Positions 2,905 to 53,017 of a DNA stretch of 64,000 nucleotides are shown one piece after another. Positions within the stretch are counted from its first letter, which is position 1, and each line of letters begins with the position of its first letter. The position numbers and the translations under genes were made by a program. The notes under the pieces were generated by a model that worked only from the letters and a program-made list of their open reading frames with translations, did no database searches and was not told the DNA's origin. This DNA is from Arthrobacter sp. StoSoilB22 (GTDB taxonomy: Bacteria; Actinomycetota; Actinomycetes; Actinomycetales; Micrococcaceae): contig NZ_AP024652.1 in NCBI RefSeq assembly GCF_019977315.1, positions 2,294,001 to 2,358,000 on the forward strand, in the 5' to 3' direction.

Positions 2905-5829
2905 GTGCCCAAAGCCTTAGCTGAAGATACCGCCATGGACGCCTTGAACGGCGTCCCCGCTCTTTCCGATACCAAACCCGCCAAGCCGGACCTTTCCCGC
3001 TTGGTGGTTAAGGGTGCCCGGGAACACAATTTGCGCAACGTGGACCTCGACCTACCGCGCGACGCCATGATCGTGTTCACAGGACTCTCCGGTTCCGGCA
3101 AGTCCTCCCTGGCTTTCGATACCATCTTCGCCGAAGGCCAGCGTCGCTACGTGGAGTCATTGTCCGCATATGCACGTCAGTTCCTTGGCCAGGTAGACAA
3201 ACCTGATGTCGACTTCATCGAGGGTCTGTCTCCGGCGGTATCCATCGACCAGAAGTCCACCAGCAAGAATCCACGGTCCACGGTGGGCACCATCACCGAG
3301 ATTTACGACTACATGCGTTTGCTGTGGGCGCGCGTCGGTCGTCCGCACTGCCCTGTCTGTGGCGAGCCTATCGCCCGGCAGACACCTCAACAGATTGTGG
3401 ATCAGCTCCTGGAACTGGATCCGGGTACCCGATTCCAGGTCCTTGCCCCCGTTGTGCGAGGACGCAAGGGTGAGTTCGTCGATCTTTTCAAGGAATTGAC
3501 GGCGAAGGGCTATTCCCGCGCCCGCGTAGACGGCGAGCTGGTTCAGCTGAGCGATCCGCCCAAACTCGGCAAGCAGTTCAAGCACACCATTGAAGTTGTA
3601 GTGGACCGCCTGGTGGTCAAGGAAGAGATCAGCCAACGCCTCACTGATTCCGTCGAGACCGCCCTCGGCCTCGCTGAAGGCCGTGTGCTGGTGGAGTTCG
3701 TGGACCTCGAGGCCGAGGACCCCAACCGTATCCGCGCCTTCTCAGAGAACCTGGCGTGTCCCAACGAACACCCCCTGGCCATCGATGAGATCGAACCCCG
3801 TTCGTTCTCCTTCAACAACCCCTTTGGCGCCTGCTCTGCCTGCAGCGGCATCGGCACCAGGCTGGAAGTGGATGAAGAACTGATTGTTCCCAATCCCGAG
3901 TTGTCCCTTGGCGAGGGTGCCATTGCCCCTTGGGCCCTTGGCACAGCCACCACGGAGTACTGGAACCGTCTCCTTGAGGGGCTGGCGCACGAGCTGGGCT
4001 TCTCCATGAAGACCTCCTGGGAGAAACTGCCCAAGGACATCCGGAATACGGTCCTGCACGGCAAGGACCACAAGGTGGTTGTCCAGTACAAGAACCGCTT
4101 TGGCCGCGAGCGTAAGTACAGCACCGGCTTCGAGGGTGCCATACAGTACGTTCACCGCAAGCACGGAGAAACAGACTCCGACTGGGCCCGCGACCGGTAC
4201 GAAGAGTACATGCGTCAGATTCCGTGCCCCGAGTGCAACGGTGCCCGCCTCAACCCTGCCTCGCTGTCCGTGCTCATCAACGGTAAGTCGATCGCCGAGG
4301 TTGCAGCCCTGCCCATGCGTGAGTGCGCGGAGTTCCTGGGCAGCCTTACCCTGACCAACAGGGAAGCCCAGATTGCCAACCAGGTCCTGAAGGAGATCCA
4401 GGCCCGCCTGACCTTCCTCCTGGACGTTGGACTGGAGTACCTGAACCTTGAACGCCCTTCGGGAACCCTGTCGGGCGGTGAGGCTCAGCGCATCCGTCTT
4501 GCCACCCAAATTGGCTCTGGCCTGGTGGGTGTCCTCTATGTTTTGGATGAGCCATCCATTGGTTTGCACCAGCGGGACAACCGGCGGCTCATCGAGACGC
4601 TCACGCGCCTCCGGGACCTCGGTAACACCCTGATCGTCGTGGAGCACGACGAAGACACCATCCACGAAGCCGACTGGGTGGTGGACATCGGACCGGGTGC
4701 CGGCGAGCACGGCGGCCAGGTAGTGCACTCCGGTACCTACAAGGAGCTGCTGAAAAACACGGAGTCACTGACCGGTGACTACCTGTCCGGTCGTCGCAAG
4801 ATCGATGTCCCCACCAAACGCCGTAAGTACGACAAAAAGCGTGAACTCAAGGTTGTAGGTGCCCGGGAGAACAACCTCAGCAATGTTGACGCCACGTTCC
4901 CCCTGGGACTTTTCACGGCGGTCACTGGTGTCAGTGGATCCGGCAAGTCCACGTTGGTGAACGAAATCCTCTACAAGGTCCTCGCCAACAAGCTCAACGG
5001 AGCCAAGCAGGTTGCAGGCCGCCACCGCACAGTTGCTGGACTCGAGCACCTGGACAAGGTGGTCCACGTTGATCAAAGCCCCATCGGCCGTACACCCCGG
5101 TCCAACCCAGCTACGTACACCGGTGTCTTTGACAACATCCGGAAACTCTTTGCTGAGACCACCGAAGCCAAGGTGCGGGGCTACCAGCCGGGGCGCTTCT
5201 CCTTCAATGTCAAGGGCGGGCGCTGCGAGGCTTGTTCGGGCGACGGCACACTGAAGATCGAAATGAACTTCCTGCCGGATGTCTATGTTCCTTGCGAAGT
5301 GTGCCACGGCGCCAGGTACAACCGGGAAACCCTTGAGGTTCACTACAAAGGCAAGACCATTGCGGACGTCCTCAACATGCCCATTGAAGAAGGTGCCGAG
5401 TTCTTCGCTGCCTTCACCCCCATCGCACGGCATTTGAAGACCTTGGTGGATGTGGGCTTGGGCTACGTCAGGCTTGGCCAACCTGCAACCACACTCTCAG
5501 GCGGCGAGGCGCAGCGCGTGAAGCTGGCAGCCGAGCTTCAGAAGCGGTCGAACGGACGCAGCATCTACGTCCTCGATGAGCCCACCACGGGCCTGCACTT
5601 TGAGGACATACGTAAGCTGCTCCTGGTTCTTCAGGGCTTGGTGGATAAGGGCAACACCGTGATCACCATCGAACACAACCTGGATGTCATCAAATCCGCG
5701 GACTGGATTGTGGACCTTGGTCCCAATGGTGGTTCGGGCGGCGGGAAGATCGTGGCCACAGGAACGCCGGAACAGGTGGCCAAATCCGCGGACAGCCACA
5801 CGGCGACCTTCCTGGCCGAGATTCTCTGA
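2905..5829 (+). CDS. uvrA: Excinuclease ABC subunit A
   Basis: UvrA is the damage-recognition ATPase of nucleotide excision repair; it works as a dimer with UvrB in the cytoplasm. The 974-residue length is normal. It carries two ABC ATPase halves: Walker [10 protein letters not shown] near residue 60 with signature [12 protein letters not shown] near 525, and Walker [10 protein letters not shown] near residue 675 with signature [15 protein letters not shown] near 865. The second-half zinc finger is CEACSGDGT...CEVCHGARY (C4), and a CPVCGEPI and CSACSG pair mark the first half. The GTG at 2905 is preferred because of the -10 hexamer six bases before it; an ATG at 2935 is the alternative. uvrC lies 1.5 kb downstream on the same strand. 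Confidence 0.97.
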
Positions 5830-46865: not shown

Positions 46866-47618
46866 ATGGGAATGCTGGATAACAAGACCGCGATCGTCAC
46901 AGGGTCCTCCCGCGGAATTGGCGCCGAAGTTGCCAAGATCCTCGCAGGTGAGGGCGCCGCCGTCGTGGTCAACTACCGCCAGAAGGCGCCTCGCGCCAAC
47001 AAGGTAGTGGCCGGGATCCAGGCTGCAGGTGGACGTGCCGCCGCCGTCGGCGCAGACCTCACTACCGATGAAGGAGTTCACGCACTGGCCAGCACCGCGA
47101 TGGAAGAGTTCGGCTCCCTCGATATCCTGGTCCTCAATGCCTCCGGCGGTATGGAATCCGGCATGGAGGAGGGGTACGCACTCAAGCTGAACCGCGATGC
47201 CCAGGTCAACATGCTCAATGCGGCTGTTCCCCTCATGCCCGAGGGATCTCGCGTGGTATTCGTCACCAGCCACCAGGCGCACTTTGTGGAGACCGTGCCC
47301 ACTATGCCCGAGTATGAGCCTGTGGCAAAGAGCAAGCGCGCCGGTGAGGATGCCCTGCGCGCCCTCCTGCCCAACCTTGCGGACAAGGGCATCTCACTGG
47401 TGGTTGTGTCCGGCGATATGATCGAGGGCACCGTGACTGCCACGTTGCTTGATCGCTCCAACCCGGGCGCTATCGAAGCGCGCCGCGCGGAAGCCGGCAA
47501 GCTCTACTCCGTGGAGGAGTTCGCAGCCGAGGTGGCAAAGATGGTGACCGCCGACGTCGAATCCGGCCACACTGAATATGTGGGCGGCGCCGACTACTTC
47601 GACAAAACGTCAGAGTAG
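46866..47618 (+). CDS. SDR-family protein lacking the canonical catalytic Tyr
   Basis: A 250-residue Rossmann-fold protein. The nucleotide motif VTGSSRGIGAEVA and the LNASGG (NAG-like) motif are intact, and a Ser lies in VTSHQAHF. The active-site segment reads YEPVAKSKRAGEDAL; aligning SK with the usual YxxxK places Val153 where the catalytic Tyr should be. The only nearby Tyr is three residues earlier. It could act as a binding protein, use another acid-base residue, or have a different reaction. It sits in the place of fabI/inhA after fabG, 116 bases downstream, but does not resemble an enoyl reductase. The start is ATG 46866 with AAAGGAG upstream. Confidence 0.85.
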   Translation: MGMLDNKTAIVTGSSRGIGAEVAKILAGEGAAVVVNYRQKAPRANKVVAGIQAAGGRAAAVGADLTTDEGVHALASTAMEEFGSLDILVLNASGGMESGMEEGYALKLNRDAQVNMLNAAVPLMPEGSRVVFVTSHQAHFVETVPTMPEYEPVAKSKRAGEDALRALLPNLADKGISLVVVSGDMIEGTVTATLLDRSNPGAIEARRAEAGKLYSVEEFAAEVAKMVTADVESGHTEYVGGADYFDKTSE

Positions 47619-47634
47619 CCTTCGCACACCACTC

Positions 47635-47672
47635 CAGCAGAGGCCCGGGACATGTGTCCCGGGCCTCTGCTG
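47635..47672 (+). terminator. Terminator-like perfect palindrome after the SDR gene
   Basis: An 18-base-pair perfect stem with arms CAGCAGAGGCCCGGGACA and TGTCCCGGGCCTCTGCTG lies 16 bases after the SDR stop; the TG at the centre leaves almost no loop. Only TT follows, so it may end transcription by structure alone. Confidence 0.7.
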
Positions 47673-47943
47673 CTTAAACACGCCTTGGCGTGTGAACAAT
47701 AACGATTCCAACAATTATTTTGATTTTCGCGTCACGAAATGCGCTTTATTGTTTTAGGGCAATCGCTTTGCAATATGGGATTTGATCTGATTGACTCTCA
47801 AAGGCGCCCTCGCCCTTGGTTATCAACGGGCCGCACAACCCCGGGTTGGGAGTTTAGATACACTCAGCAACCTCATGCAGCATGTGGAAGCTACTCGGTT
47901 GACTCACAGGGCGATTATTGTCCCCTTGCATTAGGAGCTTTCG
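47673..47943 (+). other. AT-rich leader region of the RbsA-like gene
   Basis: This 271-base stretch is visibly AT-rich against its GC-rich surroundings. It contains the first copy of the direct repeat (47708-47757) and the ribosome-binding site AGGAG at 47933-47937. A 76-residue frame (47739-47969) runs through it but has no recognisable product. No clear promoter pair is seen. Confidence 0.4.
47708..47757 (+). repeat. AT-rich direct repeat, copy A
   Basis: Centred on GCGTCACGAAAT (47729-47740), which recurs exactly at 50268-50279. Flanks match more loosely on both sides, mostly with transitions: TTTATTGTTTTAG here against TTTACTGTTTCAG in copy B, and AATTATTTTGATTTT against AATTGTTTCTGTTTC. 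The copies are in the same orientation and bracket the RbsA-like and roadblock genes. Confidence 0.6.
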
Positions 47944-49446
47944 TTGGACCTGTTATTGCACGCCGATAATATTCATGCATCATACGATCAGCGGCGAATC
48001 CTCAAAGGCGTTGCACTTTCGGTACGACGAGGCGAGATCCTGGGTTTGATCGGAACCAACGGTGCGGGAAAAACCACGCTGATGGGCGTACTGGCCGGCT
48101 TGCATCAACACGACGCCGGGCTGATGACGCTGGCGGGAGAAAAGTATGGGCCGGAATCCCTTGATGAAGCGCAAGCCTGCGGAGTCGGCCTCATCCCGCA
48201 GAACTTCAGGATCGACCCCCAGCTAACCATCGCACAAGCCATCTTTCGCGGTACGTTCCAGGCAGACAGGCCCCACGAGGAACTCCGTGAGCAAGCAAGC
48301 CAGCTGATCGGTGACATCGGCGTCAGCCTGGATCCGGACACCAAAGCTGGATCCCTCATCCGTGCTGAGCAAGCCCTGGTTGAAGTCCTGAGGATGGTCG
48401 CCGAAGAAGCCCAGCTCGTCATCATGGACGAGGTTGCTGCATCGCTTCCGGACCATGACGTCGCCGTGCTCCATCAGGTTCTGCGCATGCTCGTCCGGCA
48501 AGGACGGGCCATCATTTACATCACCCATCGCCTGGACGAGGTCCGATCCATTGCCCACCGCATAGCCGTACTCAGGGAAGGCCGGGTGCACAAAATCCTG
48601 GAGGCCAGCCATACCGACGTCGACGAACTGGCCTTCCTGTTGCTTCAGCACGAACTGGAAGGCAGCGCCAGGCCCAGCGACCCCGCCGAGGTTGATGAAG
48701 TCCTGCGGGTAGTGTCCCTCAGCGTGGGGGACAGGGTTCGGGACATTACCTTCAGTGTGGGCAGGGGCGAGATTCTTGGCTTGGCAGGAACGCATCGTTC
48801 CGGCGTCTACGAGTTGGTCGAAGCGCTGGCGGGCGTCCGCCCCGGCACCTCAGGCCACCTGCTCATGCATGGACAAGCAGTGCAGATACGGTCGGTCGAG
48901 GATGCCATGCGGTTGAAGATCGGATACTTGTCCGATGCCCTCGACGCTGACCAGGCCACGGGAACCATAGTGGCAGGCCTTCAGCGAGGCGTGGAAGGGG
49001 GAGAAACGAGCCTTCGGGATGAGATCACGCAGCTTCGTGGGGTTGCGGAAGTCATTCAACGCATGCGCATCAGCACCACCAACATCCACGGAAACATCAG
49101 TACGCTTTCGGGCGGCGACCGCCAGAAAGTGCAGCTTGCCAAGTGGATGACCACAGGCTGCGACCTCTTGATCCTTAGCCATCCGAGCCGCGGAATCGAC
49201 ATCGGCGCCAAGGAAGCGGTCTACCAGATGCTCAACGAGCTCAGCCAAACAGGCGTGGCCATTATTCTCCTGTCCTCGGACCTGTCCGAACTGATCAGCT
49301 GGTGCCACCGGGTGGGTGTCATGCGAGACGGCGAACTCGTGACCATCGAGGCCAATGCCAACACCAACGAAGATGTGCTGGTGCACCATATGTTGGGCGT
49401 GAAATTTGAATCAGGCAGCAGCGAGGCCCGGCGCGCGAGAATTTGA
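47944..49446 (+). CDS. Orphan RbsA/MglA-like double ABC ATPase with degenerate second site
   Basis: A 500-residue protein with the two-ATPase layout of sugar importers. Site 1 has Walker A LIGTNGAGKTTLMGVLAGL near residue 36, Walker B with Asp162-Glu163 (VIMDEVAASL, Val for the usual Pro) and H-switch IYITHRLDEV, but its signature is SLIRAEQALVEV rather than LSxGQ-like. Site 2 has a degenerate P-loop (LAGTHRSGVYELVEAL, usual for this family), an intact ISTLSGGDRQKVQLAKWM signature, but Walker B reads LILSHPSRGIDIG: Ser412-His413 replace Asp-Glu. No permease or binding protein is nearby. The TTG start has AGGAG six bases upstream. It is convergent with a roadblock protein gene; a regulatory rather than transport role is possible. 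Confidence 0.82.
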   Translation: MDLLLHADNIHASYDQRRILKGVALSVRRGEILGLIGTNGAGKTTLMGVLAGLHQHDAGLMTLAGEKYGPESLDEAQACGVGLIPQNFRIDPQLTIAQAIFRGTFQADRPHEELREQASQLIGDIGVSLDPDTKAGSLIRAEQALVEVLRMVAEEAQLVIMDEVAASLPDHDVAVLHQVLRMLVRQGRAIIYITHRLDEVRSIAHRIAVLREGRVHKILEASHTDVDELAFLLLQHELEGSARPSDPAEVDEVLRVVSLSVGDRVRDITFSVGRGEILGLAGTHRSGVYELVEALAGVRPGTSGHLLMHGQAVQIRSVEDAMRLKIGYLSDALDADQATGTIVAGLQRGVEGGETSLRDEITQLRGVAEVIQRMRISTTNIHGNISTLSGGDRQKVQLAKWMTTGCDLLILSHPSRGIDIGAKEAVYQMLNELSQTGVAIILLSSDLSELISWCHRVGVMRDGELVTIEANANTNEDVLVHHMLGVKFESGSSEARRARI

Positions 49447-49470
49447 CGCGTTGGATCCCTGCCACGGCAA

Positions 49471-49505
49471 TAGGGGCGGTGACGCATGATGCGCCACCGC
49501 CCCTA
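49471..49505. terminator. Bidirectional terminator between the RbsA-like and roadblock genes
   Basis: Arms TAGGGGCGGTG and CACCGCCCCTA pair perfectly, with a further GCGC-type extension after one mismatch around a 5-base loop. It lies 24 bases after the ATPase stop and 18 bases after the roadblock stop on the other strand, so it can serve both convergent genes. Confidence 0.75.
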
Positions 49506-49523
49506 GTGACTTTCCTCGAAAGA

Positions 49524-50093
49524 TCAGATGGTGATGTCCTTGGCGAGGTTTTTGAGCTTGTGCCGGGCAAGCGCCAGGTTCGCATAGGTCCTGTCAAGCA
49601 CAAGGTAGACGAACAGCCCCTTGGAGCCGCTCGAGTTCAGTACGTTGATGAGGTGGTACTGCGTTCCCAAGGTAATAAGAATGTCTTCGATGTCGCTGTC
49701 AAGGCTTAGGTCGGCCATGGTACGCAACTTGGCGCTCACCACGTTGGAGTTGCCGGCTGCTGCAACTCCGAGGTCAAAACCGGGGCTTCCGCCCTGGGCC
49801 AAGGCCATGCCGCTGGAGTAGTCCACCACGGCAGCACCAGTTGATCCTTCGATGGCCAGCAGTTGCTTTATGGCTTCGTCCAGTGTGCTCATATCCGGTA
49901 GTTCCTGTTCTGTTGAGTAATCGGGAGTTTCTGTGAAGTCGGCAAACCGGCTTGCGTCGTCGTCATCAAGATCCAAGTGGAGGATCTCAAGCAAGGGTGA
50001 CAAGGGACCTTCCGCGCCATCTTGTTCATGGGCGTTGGATTGGTAGCCTTCGCCGCGTTTCCACCATTTCCATGTGCGCTCTGAACGGCCCAC
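49524..50093 (-). CDS. Roadblock/LC7 domain protein with N-terminal extension
   Basis: A 189-residue protein. Residues 68-189 form a roadblock/LC7-like domain: LDEAIKQLLAIEGSTGAAVVD, SGMALAQGG, AAAGNSNVVSAKLRTMADLS, then IEDILITLGTQYHLINVLN and LFVYLVLDRTYANLALARHKL. Such domains dimerise and regulate small GTPases or other nucleotide-binding switches. The first 67 residues are unusual: RTWKWWKRGEG, then an acidic DLDDDDASRF stretch. The GTG at 50093 has GAGGGTAGGA upstream; an internal ATG at 49892 would give the domain alone. No MglA-type GTPase, histidine kinase or other usual partner is adjacent; the nearest gene is the RbsA-like ATPase. Confidence 0.82.
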   Translation of the reverse strand: MGRSERTWKWWKRGEGYQSNAHEQDGAEGPLSPLLEILHLDLDDDDASRFADFTETPDYSTEQELPDMSTLDEAIKQLLAIEGSTGAAVVDYSSGMALAQGGSPGFDLGVAAAGNSNVVSAKLRTMADLSLDSDIEDILITLGTQYHLINVLNSSGSKGLFVYLVLDRTYANLALARHKLKNLAKDITI

Positions 50094-50246
50094 TTCCTAC
50101 CCTCGAATTTCGTCATTCCGGTCAACCGCTGATAATGCGGAGATATTGATAAGAATCTCCACTTTACACAATTAAGGGGCATCGGAGACTGAAATACGCC
50201 CTCGGCTACCATCGAGGGTATTCCGTCACCAGAAAGAATGACAATT

Positions 50247-50296
50247 GTATAAATTGTTTCTGTTTCTGCGTCACGAAATTGGTTTTACTGTTTCAG
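50247..50296 (+). repeat. AT-rich direct repeat, copy B
   Basis: The second copy of the element centred on GCGTCACGAAAT (50268-50279), 2539 bases from copy A and in the same orientation. Nothing is encoded downstream on this strand, so it is unlikely to be a plain plus-strand promoter; a palindrome ACAATT/AATTGT overlaps its left end. Confidence 0.6.
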
Positions 50297-50344
50297 ATCG
50301 GGTCTTTACGTTTTGAGCGTCGATAACGGGCACGCAGATACGTC

Positions 50345-50377
50345 AAAGCACCGGCGGGATAACCGCGCCGGTGCTTT
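50345..50377 (-). terminator. Terminator of serB
   Basis: A 12-base-pair stem, arms AAAGCACCGGCG and CGCCGGTGCTTT allowing for the offset, with a 9-base loop, lies 45 bases beyond the serB stop. T residues flank the stem on the minus strand. Confidence 0.65.
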
Positions 50378-50421
50378 GCGAGGGGACTGGAGAGGGGCTC
50401 GGGGAAAATGCGCCCCTGCAA

Positions 50422-51315
50422 TCACACGTTGGCTATGTGCCGCACGGCGTCCAAATACGGCATGGTGATCACGGCGTCTGCCACCGCGCGAACAGCAGGT
50501 TTGGCATTGAAAGCAACTCCAATGCCGGCAGCACTGAGCATGTCAAGGTCATTGGCACCGTCGCCCACTGCGATGGTGTGCTCACGGCTGATGCCCTCAG
50601 CAGCCGCCCACTCGCGCAAGTACTTTTCCTTGGCGGCCCGATCGATCACCGCGCCCAGCACCTTACCGGTCAACGCGCCGTCGACGATTTCAAGCTCGTT
50701 GGCGATCCAATGGTCCAAGCCGAGTTCATCAGCGATCGGACCCAGGATCTGGTTGAATCCTCCGGACACCACCGCCACCACGTGGCCCGCCTTCTTGAAA
50801 GCCGCCACAAGTTCTGCAGCACCAAGGCTGAGGCGCACCTCTTGGCGAACAGAATCGACGACGGCGGCCGGCAGGCCTGCGAGGACGGCAACGCGGGCGT
50901 GGAGGCTCTGGGCAAAGTCCAACTCGCCGCGCATTGCGGCTTCGGTGACGGCAGCGACTTCCTCGCGTTTGCCAGCGTGCGCTGCCAGCAGTTCAATGAC
51001 CTCTTGCTGGATCAGCGTGGAATCAACATCCATGATCAAGAGCTTTCGGGCGGCTTGGCGCAACGATTCAGGCACGATGGCAGTATCCACCCCTGCTTCT
51101 GCGGCCTCTGCCACCAGCCGACGCATGGTGCGCAGTTCCACATCCGTGTCCCCGCCCACCAAGAGAGCGGCCGTGTGCACTCCAAAGCGCTCGTCTCCAC
51201 CCTGTGATTCCGATGACACTGCCGCGCCGGCATCGGCCAGCGTCTTCCGCACATTGTCGAGGGATTCGGGGGACAAGTTCACGCCATAGCTGACTGCAGC
51301 CAAGTTCGAAGTCAT
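50422..51315 (-). CDS. serB: Phosphoserine phosphatase
   Basis: A 297-residue HAD enzyme that makes L-serine from phosphoserine. The N-terminal 90 residues resemble an ACT-like regulatory region (RFGVHTAALLVGGDTDVELRT). The catalytic part has motif I LLIMDVDSTLIQQEVIELLA, motif II VAVVSGGFNQIL, and motif IV TIAVGDGANDLDMLSAAGIG, all as in SerB. The open frame extends 22 codons upstream, but the ATG at 51315 lies seven bases after a -10 hexamer, so I take it as a leaderless start. Divergent from an ABC ATPase gene. Confidence 0.95.
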   Translation of the reverse strand: MTSNLAAVSYGVNLSPESLDNVRKTLADAGAAVSSESQGGDERFGVHTAALLVGGDTDVELRTMRRLVAEAAEAGVDTAIVPESLRQAARKLLIMDVDSTLIQQEVIELLAAHAGKREEVAAVTEAAMRGELDFAQSLHARVAVLAGLPAAVVDSVRQEVRLSLGAAELVAAFKKAGHVVAVVSGGFNQILGPIADELGLDHWIANELEIVDGALTGKVLGAVIDRAAKEKYLREWAAAEGISREHTIAVGDGANDLDMLSAAGIGVAFNAKPAVRAVADAVITMPYLDAVRHIANV

Positions 51316-51322
51316 GGCCCCA

Positions 51323-51328
51323 ATCCTA
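51323..51328 (-). promoter_or_regulatory. -10 element of a leaderless serB transcript
   Basis: On the minus strand TAGGAT is followed by seven bases and the serB ATG at 51315. The spacing matches the other leaderless genes in this window. Confidence 0.55.
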
Positions 51329-51426
51329 CTGAGGGCGTTGCACGCGCCCGAATTCGTTTCGCCACACAGAGCCTGCTTCACTGCCGGTTATCAGTCATAT
51401 GGATTTTTGTCCTAGTGTCTACTGCT

Positions 51427-52212
51427 ATGAGTGATGTTCTGGAATTGGCTTCCGTCAGCGTTGTCCGAGGCAAGAAGACCCTGCTGGACAAGGTTGACTG
51501 GCAGGTCAACGAAGGCGAACGCTGGGTCATCCTGGGACCCAATGGAGCCGGCAAGACCACCCTCCTCCAGATTGCTGCCGCCCGCCTGCACCCAAGCAGC
51601 GGCAGGGCCGGAATCCTTGACGAAACCCTGGGCCGCGTGGACGTCTTTGAACTGCGACCCCGGATCGGACTTTCCTCCGCCGCTCTTGCCACCCAGATTC
51701 CCGAACACGAGAACGTTCTCAACGTTGTGGTGACCGCTGCCTACGGAGTTACCGGCCGCTGGCGCGAGGGCTATGAGCGCGACGACGAACGCCGCGCCTT
51801 TGCCCTGCTCAACGACTGGGGGATGGGTCCTCTCCTGAACCGGACGTTCGCCACCCTGTCCGAGGGTGAGCGCAAACGTGTCCAGATTGCCCGCGCACTG
51901 ATGACGGACCCCGAACTGCTTCTGCTGGACGAGCCCGCGGCCGGCCTTGATCTCGGGGGACGCGAAGAACTGGTCCACAAGTTGGGCGAACTCGCCAGTG
52001 ACGAAGCAGCTCCGGCCATGGTCCTTGTCACCCACCACCTTGAGGAAGTGCCGCCAGGGTTCACTCACGCCATGCTGCTGCGCGAAGGCGGAGTGGTAGC
52101 TGCTGGTCCCATCAAGGAAGTACTTACCGACGAGCACCTCAGCAACACCTTCGGCCTGGCCTTGGATGTTTCGGAGAACGCCGGCCGCTACACGGCTACT
52201 GCCCGGCGCTAG
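51427..52212 (+). CDS. ABC transporter ATP-binding protein without a cognate permease
   Basis: A 261-residue soluble ABC ATPase. Walker A VILGPNGAGKTTLLQIAAA, Q-loop region IGLSSAALATQIPEHENV, signature FATLSEGERKRVQIARAL, Walker B LLLLDEPAAGLDLGG and H-switch LVTHHLEEVPPGFTHAMLL are all present, so it should hydrolyse ATP. LSEGE in the signature is a mild variant of LSGGE. The downstream gene is a TSUP-type carrier, which does not need an ATPase. TAGTGT eight bases before the ATG suggests a leaderless start; a GTG at 51415 is the alternative. Similar stand-alone ATPases are common in actinobacteria. Confidence 0.88.
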   Translation: MSDVLELASVSVVRGKKTLLDKVDWQVNEGERWVILGPNGAGKTTLLQIAAARLHPSSGRAGILDETLGRVDVFELRPRIGLSSAALATQIPEHENVLNVVVTAAYGVTGRWREGYERDDERRAFALLNDWGMGPLLNRTFATLSEGERKRVQIARALMTDPELLLLDEPAAGLDLGGREELVHKLGELASDEAAPAMVLVTHHLEEVPPGFTHAMLLREGGVVAAGPIKEVLTDEHLSNTFGLALDVSENAGRYTATARR

Positions 52213-52231: not shown

Positions 52232-53017
52232 GTGGAGATTCTTAGCAGCATCCTGGTCTTTTTCGCGGGCTTGTGGGCCGGCACCATCAATGCCGTCGTC
52301 GGCTCCGGCACCCTTGTTACATTCCCCGTTCTCATCGCCATTGGCACAGCGCCAGTGGTTGCCTCCATGAGCAACGCCATGGGCCTGGTGGCGGGGAACG
52401 CCGCCGGCGCTTGGGGCTACCGGCGCGAACTCGCCGGCCGCGGTCGGCAATTGATGAAACTCTTGCCGGCCTCGTTGCTGGGCGGCATTACCGGTGCCTG
52501 GCTGCTGCTCCACCTTCCGGAGAAGGTGTTCCACTACGTAGCCCCAGTGCTGCTGATACTGGCTTTGCTGATGGTGGTCTTCCAGCCCAAGCTGCAGTCC
52601 TGGGTGAAGAACAGGGAACAAAACCCCGAGCATGCCATCCGCGATCGAAATCACGACGTCCTTTTAGTGGTCCTCGTGTACCTGGCGGGCGTATACGGAG
52701 GTTACTTCGTGGCAGCACAGGGAATCTTGCTGGTGGGGATTCTGGGGGTCTTCCTCTCAGGCACCATGCAAAACGCGAATGCCATGAAGAACATCCTGGT
52801 GCTGGGCGTCAACATGGTTGCCGCCGTTTCCTACCTGATTTTTGCGTTCGACCGTATTGAGTGGTTGTTCGTCCTCATCATCGCCGTAAGCTCCACCATT
52901 GGCGGCTTGATCGGTTCAAAGGTAGGCCGAAAGCTGTCCCCGAAGGTCCTGCGGGCCGTGATCTTCGTCCTCGGCATCGTGGCACTGGGCTTCATGATCG
53001 CCAACCTGCTGAAGTGA
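52232..53017 (+). CDS. TSUP family transporter (TauE/SafE)
   Basis: A 261-residue carrier with about eight transmembrane helices in two repeated halves. The first half has VFFAGLWAGTINAVVGSGTL and ALGTAPVVASMSNAMGLVAGN-like sequence, the second VYLAGVYGGYFVAAQGILLV and NAMKNILVLGVNMVAA, the usual GxGxGG-containing pattern of the sulfite/organosulfonate exporters. A hydrophilic loop (QNPEHAIRDRNHD) joins the halves. The substrate is probably a small sulfur-containing or carboxylate anion, not assignable more precisely. The start is GTG 52232, with AGGAG about 14 bases upstream. Confidence 0.9.
   Translation: MEILSSILVFFAGLWAGTINAVVGSGTLVTFPVLIAIGTAPVVASMSNAMGLVAGNAAGAWGYRRELAGRGRQLMKLLPASLLGGITGAWLLLHLPEKVFHYVAPVLLILALLMVVFQPKLQSWVKNREQNPEHAIRDRNHDVLLVVLVYLAGVYGGYFVAAQGILLVGILGVFLSGTMQNANAMKNILVLGVNMVAAVSYLIFAFDRIEWLFVLIIAVSSTIGGLIGSKVGRKLSPKVLRAVIFVLGIVALGFMIANLLK

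Follow-up and report, generated by a model that had tools for sequence, protein, structure and literature searches.

We analysed a window of 64,000 nucleotides (nt) from Arthrobacter sp. StoSoilB22 (contig NZ_AP024652.1, positions 2,294,001 to 2,358,000) and focus here on a convergent gene pair whose stop codons lie 77 nt apart. One gene encodes an RbsA-like ABC ATPase with two nucleotide-binding domains (NBD1 and NBD2), the other a roadblock-fold protein, and a copy of the same DNA element precedes each of them. The initial annotation placed only these two genes between two housekeeping blocks, and both genes indeed exist as stated, with an SDR gene and serB as their flanks. The features of the pair, in window positions, are as follows.

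47695..47757, + strand: copy 1 of the element, upstream of the ATPase gene, with the blocks TGACAATTT-ATAAAT, GCGTCACGAAAT and TGTTTC at fixed spacing
47944..49446, + strand: gene of the RbsA-like twin-NBD ABC ATPase, TTG start, 500 amino acids (aa), no transmembrane partner nearby
48052..48078, + strand: intact NBD1 Walker A motif GTNGAGKTT, with coordinates derived from residue numbers
48427..48432, + strand: NBD1 Walker B Asp-Glu (D162 E163), intact and followed by Val, where comparison ATPases have Pro
49177..49182, + strand: NBD2 Walker B position, with Ser-His (residues 412-413) replacing Asp-Glu; the second site is probably dead
49524..50093, - strand: gene of the roadblock-fold protein, GTG start at 50093, 189 aa, comprising an N-terminal TWKWWKR motif, a low-confidence linker and the roadblock domain (about residues 66-189)
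50234..50296, + strand: copy 2 of the element, upstream of the roadblock gene, in the same DNA direction as copy 1 and in the opposite one relative to its gene

The linkage of the ATPase and roadblock genes persists through re-orientation and relocation. Among 59 genomes searched, 37 belong to the same genus; a close homologue of the ATPase (73-100% identity) is present in five of these 37, and exactly these five have the roadblock gene, adjacent to it. Searching GTDB contigs with the roadblock protein as query yielded 37 loci, in 27 of which the ATPase gene is adjacent (21 convergent, six divergent): 16 from Arthrobacter or Paenarthrobacter, three from Galactobacter, five from Pseudoclavibacter and one each from Cellulosimicrobium, Knoellia and a Microbacteriaceae strain. 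The ten loci without an adjacent ATPase are nine from Microbacterium and one from Granulicoccus, whose roadblock copy is split over two frames. In an order-level sample of 396 genomes the roadblock family (E 1e-5) occurs in 55. The ATPase subfamily, defined by E 1e-125 or better and at least 444 bits, occurs in ten, and the two genes are adjacent in nine of the ten, with five convergent, one divergent and three tandem pairs; in two tandem pairs (G107, G290) simple gene calls give a 4-nt overlap. The hypergeometric chance of nine in ten at 55/396 is 9e-8, uncorrected for kinship, and two further pairs (L140, L141) fall below the ATPase threshold. The survey that the initial annotation had proposed, of co-occurrence and adjacency in actinobacterial genomes, therefore gives a strong result, from every ATPase-bearing genome of the genus to nearly every one of the order, with changing orientation.

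Within a class-level sample of 296 genomes the roadblock family is found in 73 at E 1e-30, and an ATPase score of 444 bits is reached by the window genome only, the next match scoring 408 bits. The 19 next matches (L177-L195) have DEPT in NBD1 and Asp-Glu in NBD2 and are sugar-type proteins, not subfamily members; this was read for the best 19 only, and divergent members such as L141 (355 bits) may have been missed. Some genomes were reached by two routes, and the survey counts are not additive. Because genes were called with a simple codon or GC3 score, their starts are uncertain, as are some small genes; the calls overlooked the roadblock genes of L047, L049 and L051, which tblastn did reveal. 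The roadblock matches of G244, G162 and G232 contain one internal stop codon each, as do the ATPase matches of G162. In G041 (L142) a decayed ATPase gene lies beside the roadblock gene, its frames covering model positions 10-173 and 176-339 and the rest not being found. The split roadblock copy of Granulicoccus (L066, about 4900-5290; L071) has a Mutator-type transposase gene nearby, and the same genome encodes an ATPase of intermediate character, with DEVT in NBD1 and NEPT in NBD2.

The surroundings of the pair vary by lineage: SDR and serB, PEP carboxykinase, a shikimate-dehydrogenase-like, LemA or lipoate gene, a histidine kinase, or CtaA and UbiA. PEP carboxykinase takes the place of SDR and serB in L138, L149, L045, L046 and L055, all from the same family as the window organism (identified by Pfam for L045 and L138, and by clustering for L149, L046 and L055). 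No sugar-importer permease or binding protein was found among the selected neighbours scanned in other lineages, several of which have no Pfam match; the subfamily therefore does not show, in these neighbours, the constant company of an RbsC-type permease that the initial annotation had named as evidence against a link. In 22 congeners that lack the pair, the gap between SDR and serB is 76-129 nt in 18 and about 1.0-1.3 kb in three, and in the last serB lies outside the stretch examined. Because SDR and serB nearly adjoin in most congeners without it, the two genes were acquired or lost here together, as one block.

The two copies of the direct repeat form one ungapped element of 63 nt with three blocks and are 71% identical. 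As the initial annotation had it, both AT-rich flanks carry the same element: the G+C content is 0.47-0.48 in the 200-nt segments starting at 47600 and 47700 and 0.43 in 50100-50299, against about 0.60 in the surroundings. Its core GCGTCACGAAAT occurs exactly twice in the 4.55-Mb genome, both times at the pair, and the reversed control pattern does not occur; this count alone is weak evidence because a random 12-mer is expected about once in twice 4.55 Mb. What lifts the element above chance is that it is kept upstream of both genes in 16 of 16 Arthrobacter and Paenarthrobacter contig loci, with weaker copies on the ATPase side of L060 and on the roadblock side of L038. A sequence model built from 31 copies (the element set, A3, leaves out one copy each of L033, L042 and L060) was run on the 59 genomes and gave strong matches (E 1.1e-7 or better) in the five pair genomes alone, two per genome, and none in the other 54, under strict filters that lose weak matches; eleven weak matches lie elsewhere (E 3e-4 to 0.1). 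At pair loci outside the model set both copies were found again, clearly in G368 (53.9 and 51.9 bits) and with one clear and one weak match in G244 (39.7 and 19.2 bits). The model has no match at loci outside the Arthrobacter group or at empty sites, and a search for a shared upstream motif in Galactobacter, Cellulosimicrobium and Knoellia returned scattered 10-mers, mostly GC-rich, and nothing convincing.

From its sequence and placement, the element looks like a dedicated control element tying both genes together. A general regulon was rejected for the genus sample, as strong matches occur only at the pair. The earlier picture of genes bracketed by direct repeats stands in so far as the repeats are present, but they are shared upstream elements rather than target-site duplications, because no copy was seen at the empty sites of the congeners examined. 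On the same ground, the element being absent from congeners without the pair, we rejected both target-site duplication and att-like ends.

The roadblock protein of the window has no Pfam match even at E 10, and two of its homologues score 13.6 and 10.1 bits with Robl_LC7, below the cut-off of 23; the Robl_LC7 model misses this branch, for which the fold decides. An AlphaFold model computed from 38 homologues is confident from about residue 71 (block-mean pLDDT 83-95 over residues 71-189), and Foldseek matches it to MglB, a Streptomyces avermitilis roadblock protein and Ragulator p14/MP1 with probability 1.00, the best match being Myxococcus xanthus MglB. At the level of a predicted structure, this confirms a fold of the Roadblock/LC7 superfamily, so the name first given to the second gene was right despite the silence of Pfam. 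Roadblock proteins of Arthrobacter have an N-terminus rich in Trp and Lys/Arg, which reads WKWWKR in the window protein, and a WWRR version precedes the domain in eight of nine Microbacterium, two of three Galactobacter and three of five Pseudoclavibacter loci and in VKM Ac-2855; model confidence is low from the motif to the domain. The roadblock copies of L060 and L066, which occupy two frames, were excluded from the homologue set (A1). That of L060 (5001-5538, P. histidinolovorans) may reflect a frameshift or a sequencing error.

The ATPase has two ABC_tran matches in Pfam, and its best NCBIfam models are those of xylose, AI-2, allose and ribose importer ATPases, although all 25 matches listed lie below their cut-offs (the best at 301.8 bits, against 699). 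Both resources thus support the twin-NBD architecture of RbsA. The permease and binding protein that an RbsA importer has in its operon are missing: in agreement with the initial description of a double ATPase without either, neither a permease gene nor a substrate-binding gene is a neighbour of the pair in the window. The NBD1 H-loop and the NBD2 signature LSGGD are kept, and with NBD1 Walker A and B and this signature retained and the NBD2 catalytic pair missing, the sequence suggests that one ATP site is competent.

The loss of the NBD2 pair recurs in 26 subfamily members, comprising 18 from the ATPase set (A2) and eight order-level loci (the G210 and Granulicoccus proteins are not among them). 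None has the Asp-Glu pair at NBD2 positions 412/413, which is present in 24 of 24 sugar-type comparators; position 413 is His in 21, Gln in four and Asp in one, and position 412 is Asp in one. The corresponding residues are Ser-Gln in the G210 ATPase and Asn-Glu in the intermediate Granulicoccus ATPase. Two further marks of the subfamily are Asp in LSGGD (25 of 26 members; Asn in 24 of 24 sugar-type comparators) and Val or Ala after the NBD1 Asp-Glu (DEV/DEA), where 24 of 24 comparators have Pro (DEP), although five of the sugar-type comparators had been chosen by NBD1 DEPT, which makes Pro164 circular for those five and leaves the other set of 24 comparators unaffected. In a 62-row tree, built by a quick method and containing long branches, the 26 pair ATPases with those of G210 and Granulicoccus are split from 34 other RbsA-type ATPases with an SH-aLRT value of 100, and four Bmp-type rows form a clade of their own on the far side of this branch. 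A Foldseek search relates the ATPase to twin-NBD importer ATPases and to soluble twin-NBD proteins, namely component A2 of MCR activation and EttA; component A2 (8s7v_K) ranks second and has the highest TMq (0.80) among the best 50 matches. A sequence search of the PDB returned only remote ABC proteins among the best 60 of 540 matches.

Our roadblock phylogeny has 94 rows and was built by a quick method from few columns, with a midpoint root and without seven near-identical Arthrobacter rows. All 30 ATPase-linked rows, which represent 29 genes since G041, with its ATPase remnant only, entered twice, fall into one 40-row clade (SH-aLRT 99). Nine loci from other families of the order have a Ras-like GTPase gene directly adjacent to the gene of a roadblock homologue, and the nine GTPase-linked rows lie outside this clade, within a 13-row clade (SH-aLRT 95). 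Searches with the nine linked GTPases left 16 of the 19 genomes that carry the ATPase or a remnant of it without a small-GTPase match, among them all seven from the window's genus, whereas four of four control genomes were matched. The observation that the roadblock protein has no usual GTPase partner accordingly extends from the neighbourhood of the pair to the whole window genome (G000; no match at E 1e-5). Several class members with large genomes have roadblock homologues clustered with further roadblock and DUF4388/HTH proteins; in L225, L231, L232, L219, L220 and L222 two or three roadblock-type proteins surround a protein of about 300 aa, which in L225 is a DUF4388/HTH_20 protein.

The remaining features around the pair are listed here.

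46866-47618: SDR gene, left neighbour of the pair
47635..47672, + strand: perfect inverted repeat with 18-nt arms, 3' of the SDR gene and likely its terminator
49468..49508: inverted repeat with 20-nt arms (90%) between both stop codons, a probable shared bidirectional terminator
50344..50378: inverted repeat between element copy 2 and the serB stop codon, likely a terminator
50422-51381: serB, right neighbour of the pair
51415-52212: gene of a single-NBD ABC ATPase, beyond serB
52232-53017: gene of a TauE-type membrane protein, beyond serB

A hairpin similar to that at 47635..47672 is present at the empty sites of congeners. A tRNA target and a known structured RNA were both rejected, since the window contains no tRNA and Rfam has no structured-RNA match in 47400-50600.

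Several known systems resemble the pair in part. As in MglA/MglB systems, a roadblock-fold protein, here with MglB as its best structural match, is encoded beside a P-loop NTPase; however, the neighbour is a twin-NBD ABC ATPase of 500 aa instead of a GTPase of about 190 aa. The conservons (CvnA-D), as described in PMC13343842 and PMC4316618, likewise combine a roadblock protein of actinobacteria with an NTPase in a gene set that is conserved, but no histidine kinase, CvnC or CvnD lies beside the window pair, whose neighbours are SDR and serB. A 2014 survey (PMC4316618) reports one small clade of actinobacterial MglB proteins whose members are all orphans and lack conservon genes, and the window roadblock protein may belong to it; unlike our analysis, that survey considered GTPases as the partners of MglB and discarded ABC proteins as noise. 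By its account no orphan MglB had been characterised as of 2014; the orphan MglB of Snodgrassella has been studied since (PMC11112851) and differs in that its genome has MglA. The ATPase shares the twin NBD with the RbsA/CUT2 ATPases (29-37% identity to other ATPases in the genus search) and the lost NBD2 Asp-Glu pair with the Bmp-type importer ATPases, but differs from both in the lack of an adjacent permease, in DEV/DEA in NBD1 and in its separate branch of the tree. With the soluble ABC proteins (MCR component A2; EttA/ABC-F) it has in common a twin NBD without transmembrane domains, but component A2 is about 18% identical and belongs to another family, the importer ATPases DppD and OppD match as well, and ABC-F proteins are alike by fold only.

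We regard the pair as a conserved two-gene module, which we did not find described in the open-licence literature: among the matches listed, all from open-licence papers, none joins a roadblock protein with an ABC ATPase. On balance, and by a modest degree, we favour the hypothesis that the ATPase and the roadblock protein are partners of one cytosolic ATP-driven switch, with the ABC ATPase replacing the Ras-like partner and standing where a small GTPase would. By analogy with the action of MglB on the Ras-like GTPase MglA, a roadblock dimer would bind the ATPase and either set its ATP cycle or carry its output; one regulator acting on the shared element could keep the two proteins in proportion, and the N-terminal Trp-Lys/Arg motif might, as a guess, tether the complex to the membrane or to another protein. 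A broader version, in which the roadblock protein swapped its Ras-like GTPase for a permease-less former importer ATPase in an ancestor of these actinobacterial lineages and so founded a new class of ATP-timed switch, is one that we put forward tentatively and find somewhat harder to accept.

A number of observations weigh against the switch hypothesis. The shared element is not known from outside the Arthrobacter group, and the distribution of the pair itself is patchy, with 32 of 37 congeners lacking it. The G210 ATPase has no roadblock match and adjoins AIR-synthase-like and D-Ala-D-Ala ligase genes. A GTPase match is found in three of the 19 genomes with pair or remnant, weakly in G162 and clearly in G070 and G071. 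The ten other rows of the ATPase-linked roadblock clade, nine from Microbacterium genomes plus L145, come without that ATPase. Between families, roadblock identity is mostly about 62-77% (domain-only matches), against 39-44% for the ATPase, and because the roadblock domain is thus the better conserved, its main constraint may be something besides this ATPase. Finally, the NBD2 Asp-Glu pair is also absent from four of 24 further comparators, all four beside a BPD_transp_2 permease and two of them also adjoining a Bmp binding protein.

The last point bears on a simpler explanation, in which the ATPase energises a permease whose gene lies elsewhere and is itself inhibited or tethered by the roadblock protein. 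The RbsA-type architecture fits such an orphan transporter ATPase, and a dead second ATP site is compatible with transport, because these four Bmp-type ATPases sit beside permeases; the loss therefore excludes the sugar branch and not transport, and we rejected it as proof of a non-transporter. The literature also describes multitask ATPases for type I importers (PMC7658222) and MsiK as an ATPase serving several importers. However, each of the eight BPD_transp_2 permease genes in the window genome belongs to a cluster that has an ABC ATPase of its own (an ABC match of at least 87 bits in the 1.5-kb flanks of six; of the other two, L275 is 0.5 kb from L273 and L276 is 0.1 kb from L272), so no permease of this family is evidently waiting for this one, and the selected neighbours scanned in other lineages included no permease or binding protein of such an importer either. 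We consider this explanation unlikely.

Somewhat more doubtful still is the idea that the two proteins are bystanders, the roadblock protein functioning by itself or with an NTPase that is different or not linked, and the ATPase being merely a frequent, co-inherited neighbour. Independent occurrence in most genomes, which the initial annotation had named as evidence against a functional link, is indeed seen for the roadblock gene, as 46 of its 55 order-level genomes lack this ATPase at the strict threshold (G378, with a weaker match, and G041, with the remnant, are counted among the 46), but not for the ATPase, which is without the roadblock gene in just one genome of ten (G210). The nine Microbacterium genomes inside the linked clade also fit independent roles: no ATPase adjoins their roadblock gene, the best match anywhere in them scores 373 bits, and the top match of each genome is not a member because NBD1 reads DEPT in nine of nine. 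Two of the nine have a GTPase match. Since Microbacterium keeps the roadblock protein without it, this protein can do without this ATPase, either alone or with something else. Against the bystander reading stand a linkage that survives three gene orientations and different neighbourhoods, the same dedicated element on both genes and the lack of a small GTPase in 16 of the 19 genomes. The solo roadblock gene of Microbacterium sufflavum (L057, 3079-6555) is flanked by a different ABC ATPase gene on either side, and one of these two, which is convergent, encodes a MalK-like protein with a TOBE_2 domain; this may be a further partner swap or due to chance.

A mobile cassette of two genes with the repeats as its ends, serving for instance in phage defence, would account for the patchy distribution, the empty sites in relatives, the element copies near the ends of the inserted block and the ApeA-like HEPN protein (defence-type by Pfam name; L139, 8544-10016) that follows the tandem pair of G107, but it is very improbable, given that the repeat is absent from empty sites and so no target duplication, that the spacing and the blocks are kept in all 16 related loci, which argues that each copy is under selection, that no integrase or transposase is among the six window proteins scanned around the pair, and that PADLOC gives partial ATPase matches only (best mad3, 86.7 bits) and none for the roadblock protein. 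A known anti-phage defence system was rejected in the absence of any full-length PADLOC family match.

Roadblock proteins were predicted in 2000 to be regulators of NTPases in general (cited in PMC4316618), and the bacterial roadblock cases named in the literature passages seen have small-GTPase partners. Should the switch hypothesis hold, the partner of a roadblock protein can be an ABC ATPase, and regulation would have recruited an ATPase of the importer kind; the pair also offers a candidate partner for orphan actinobacterial roadblock genes.

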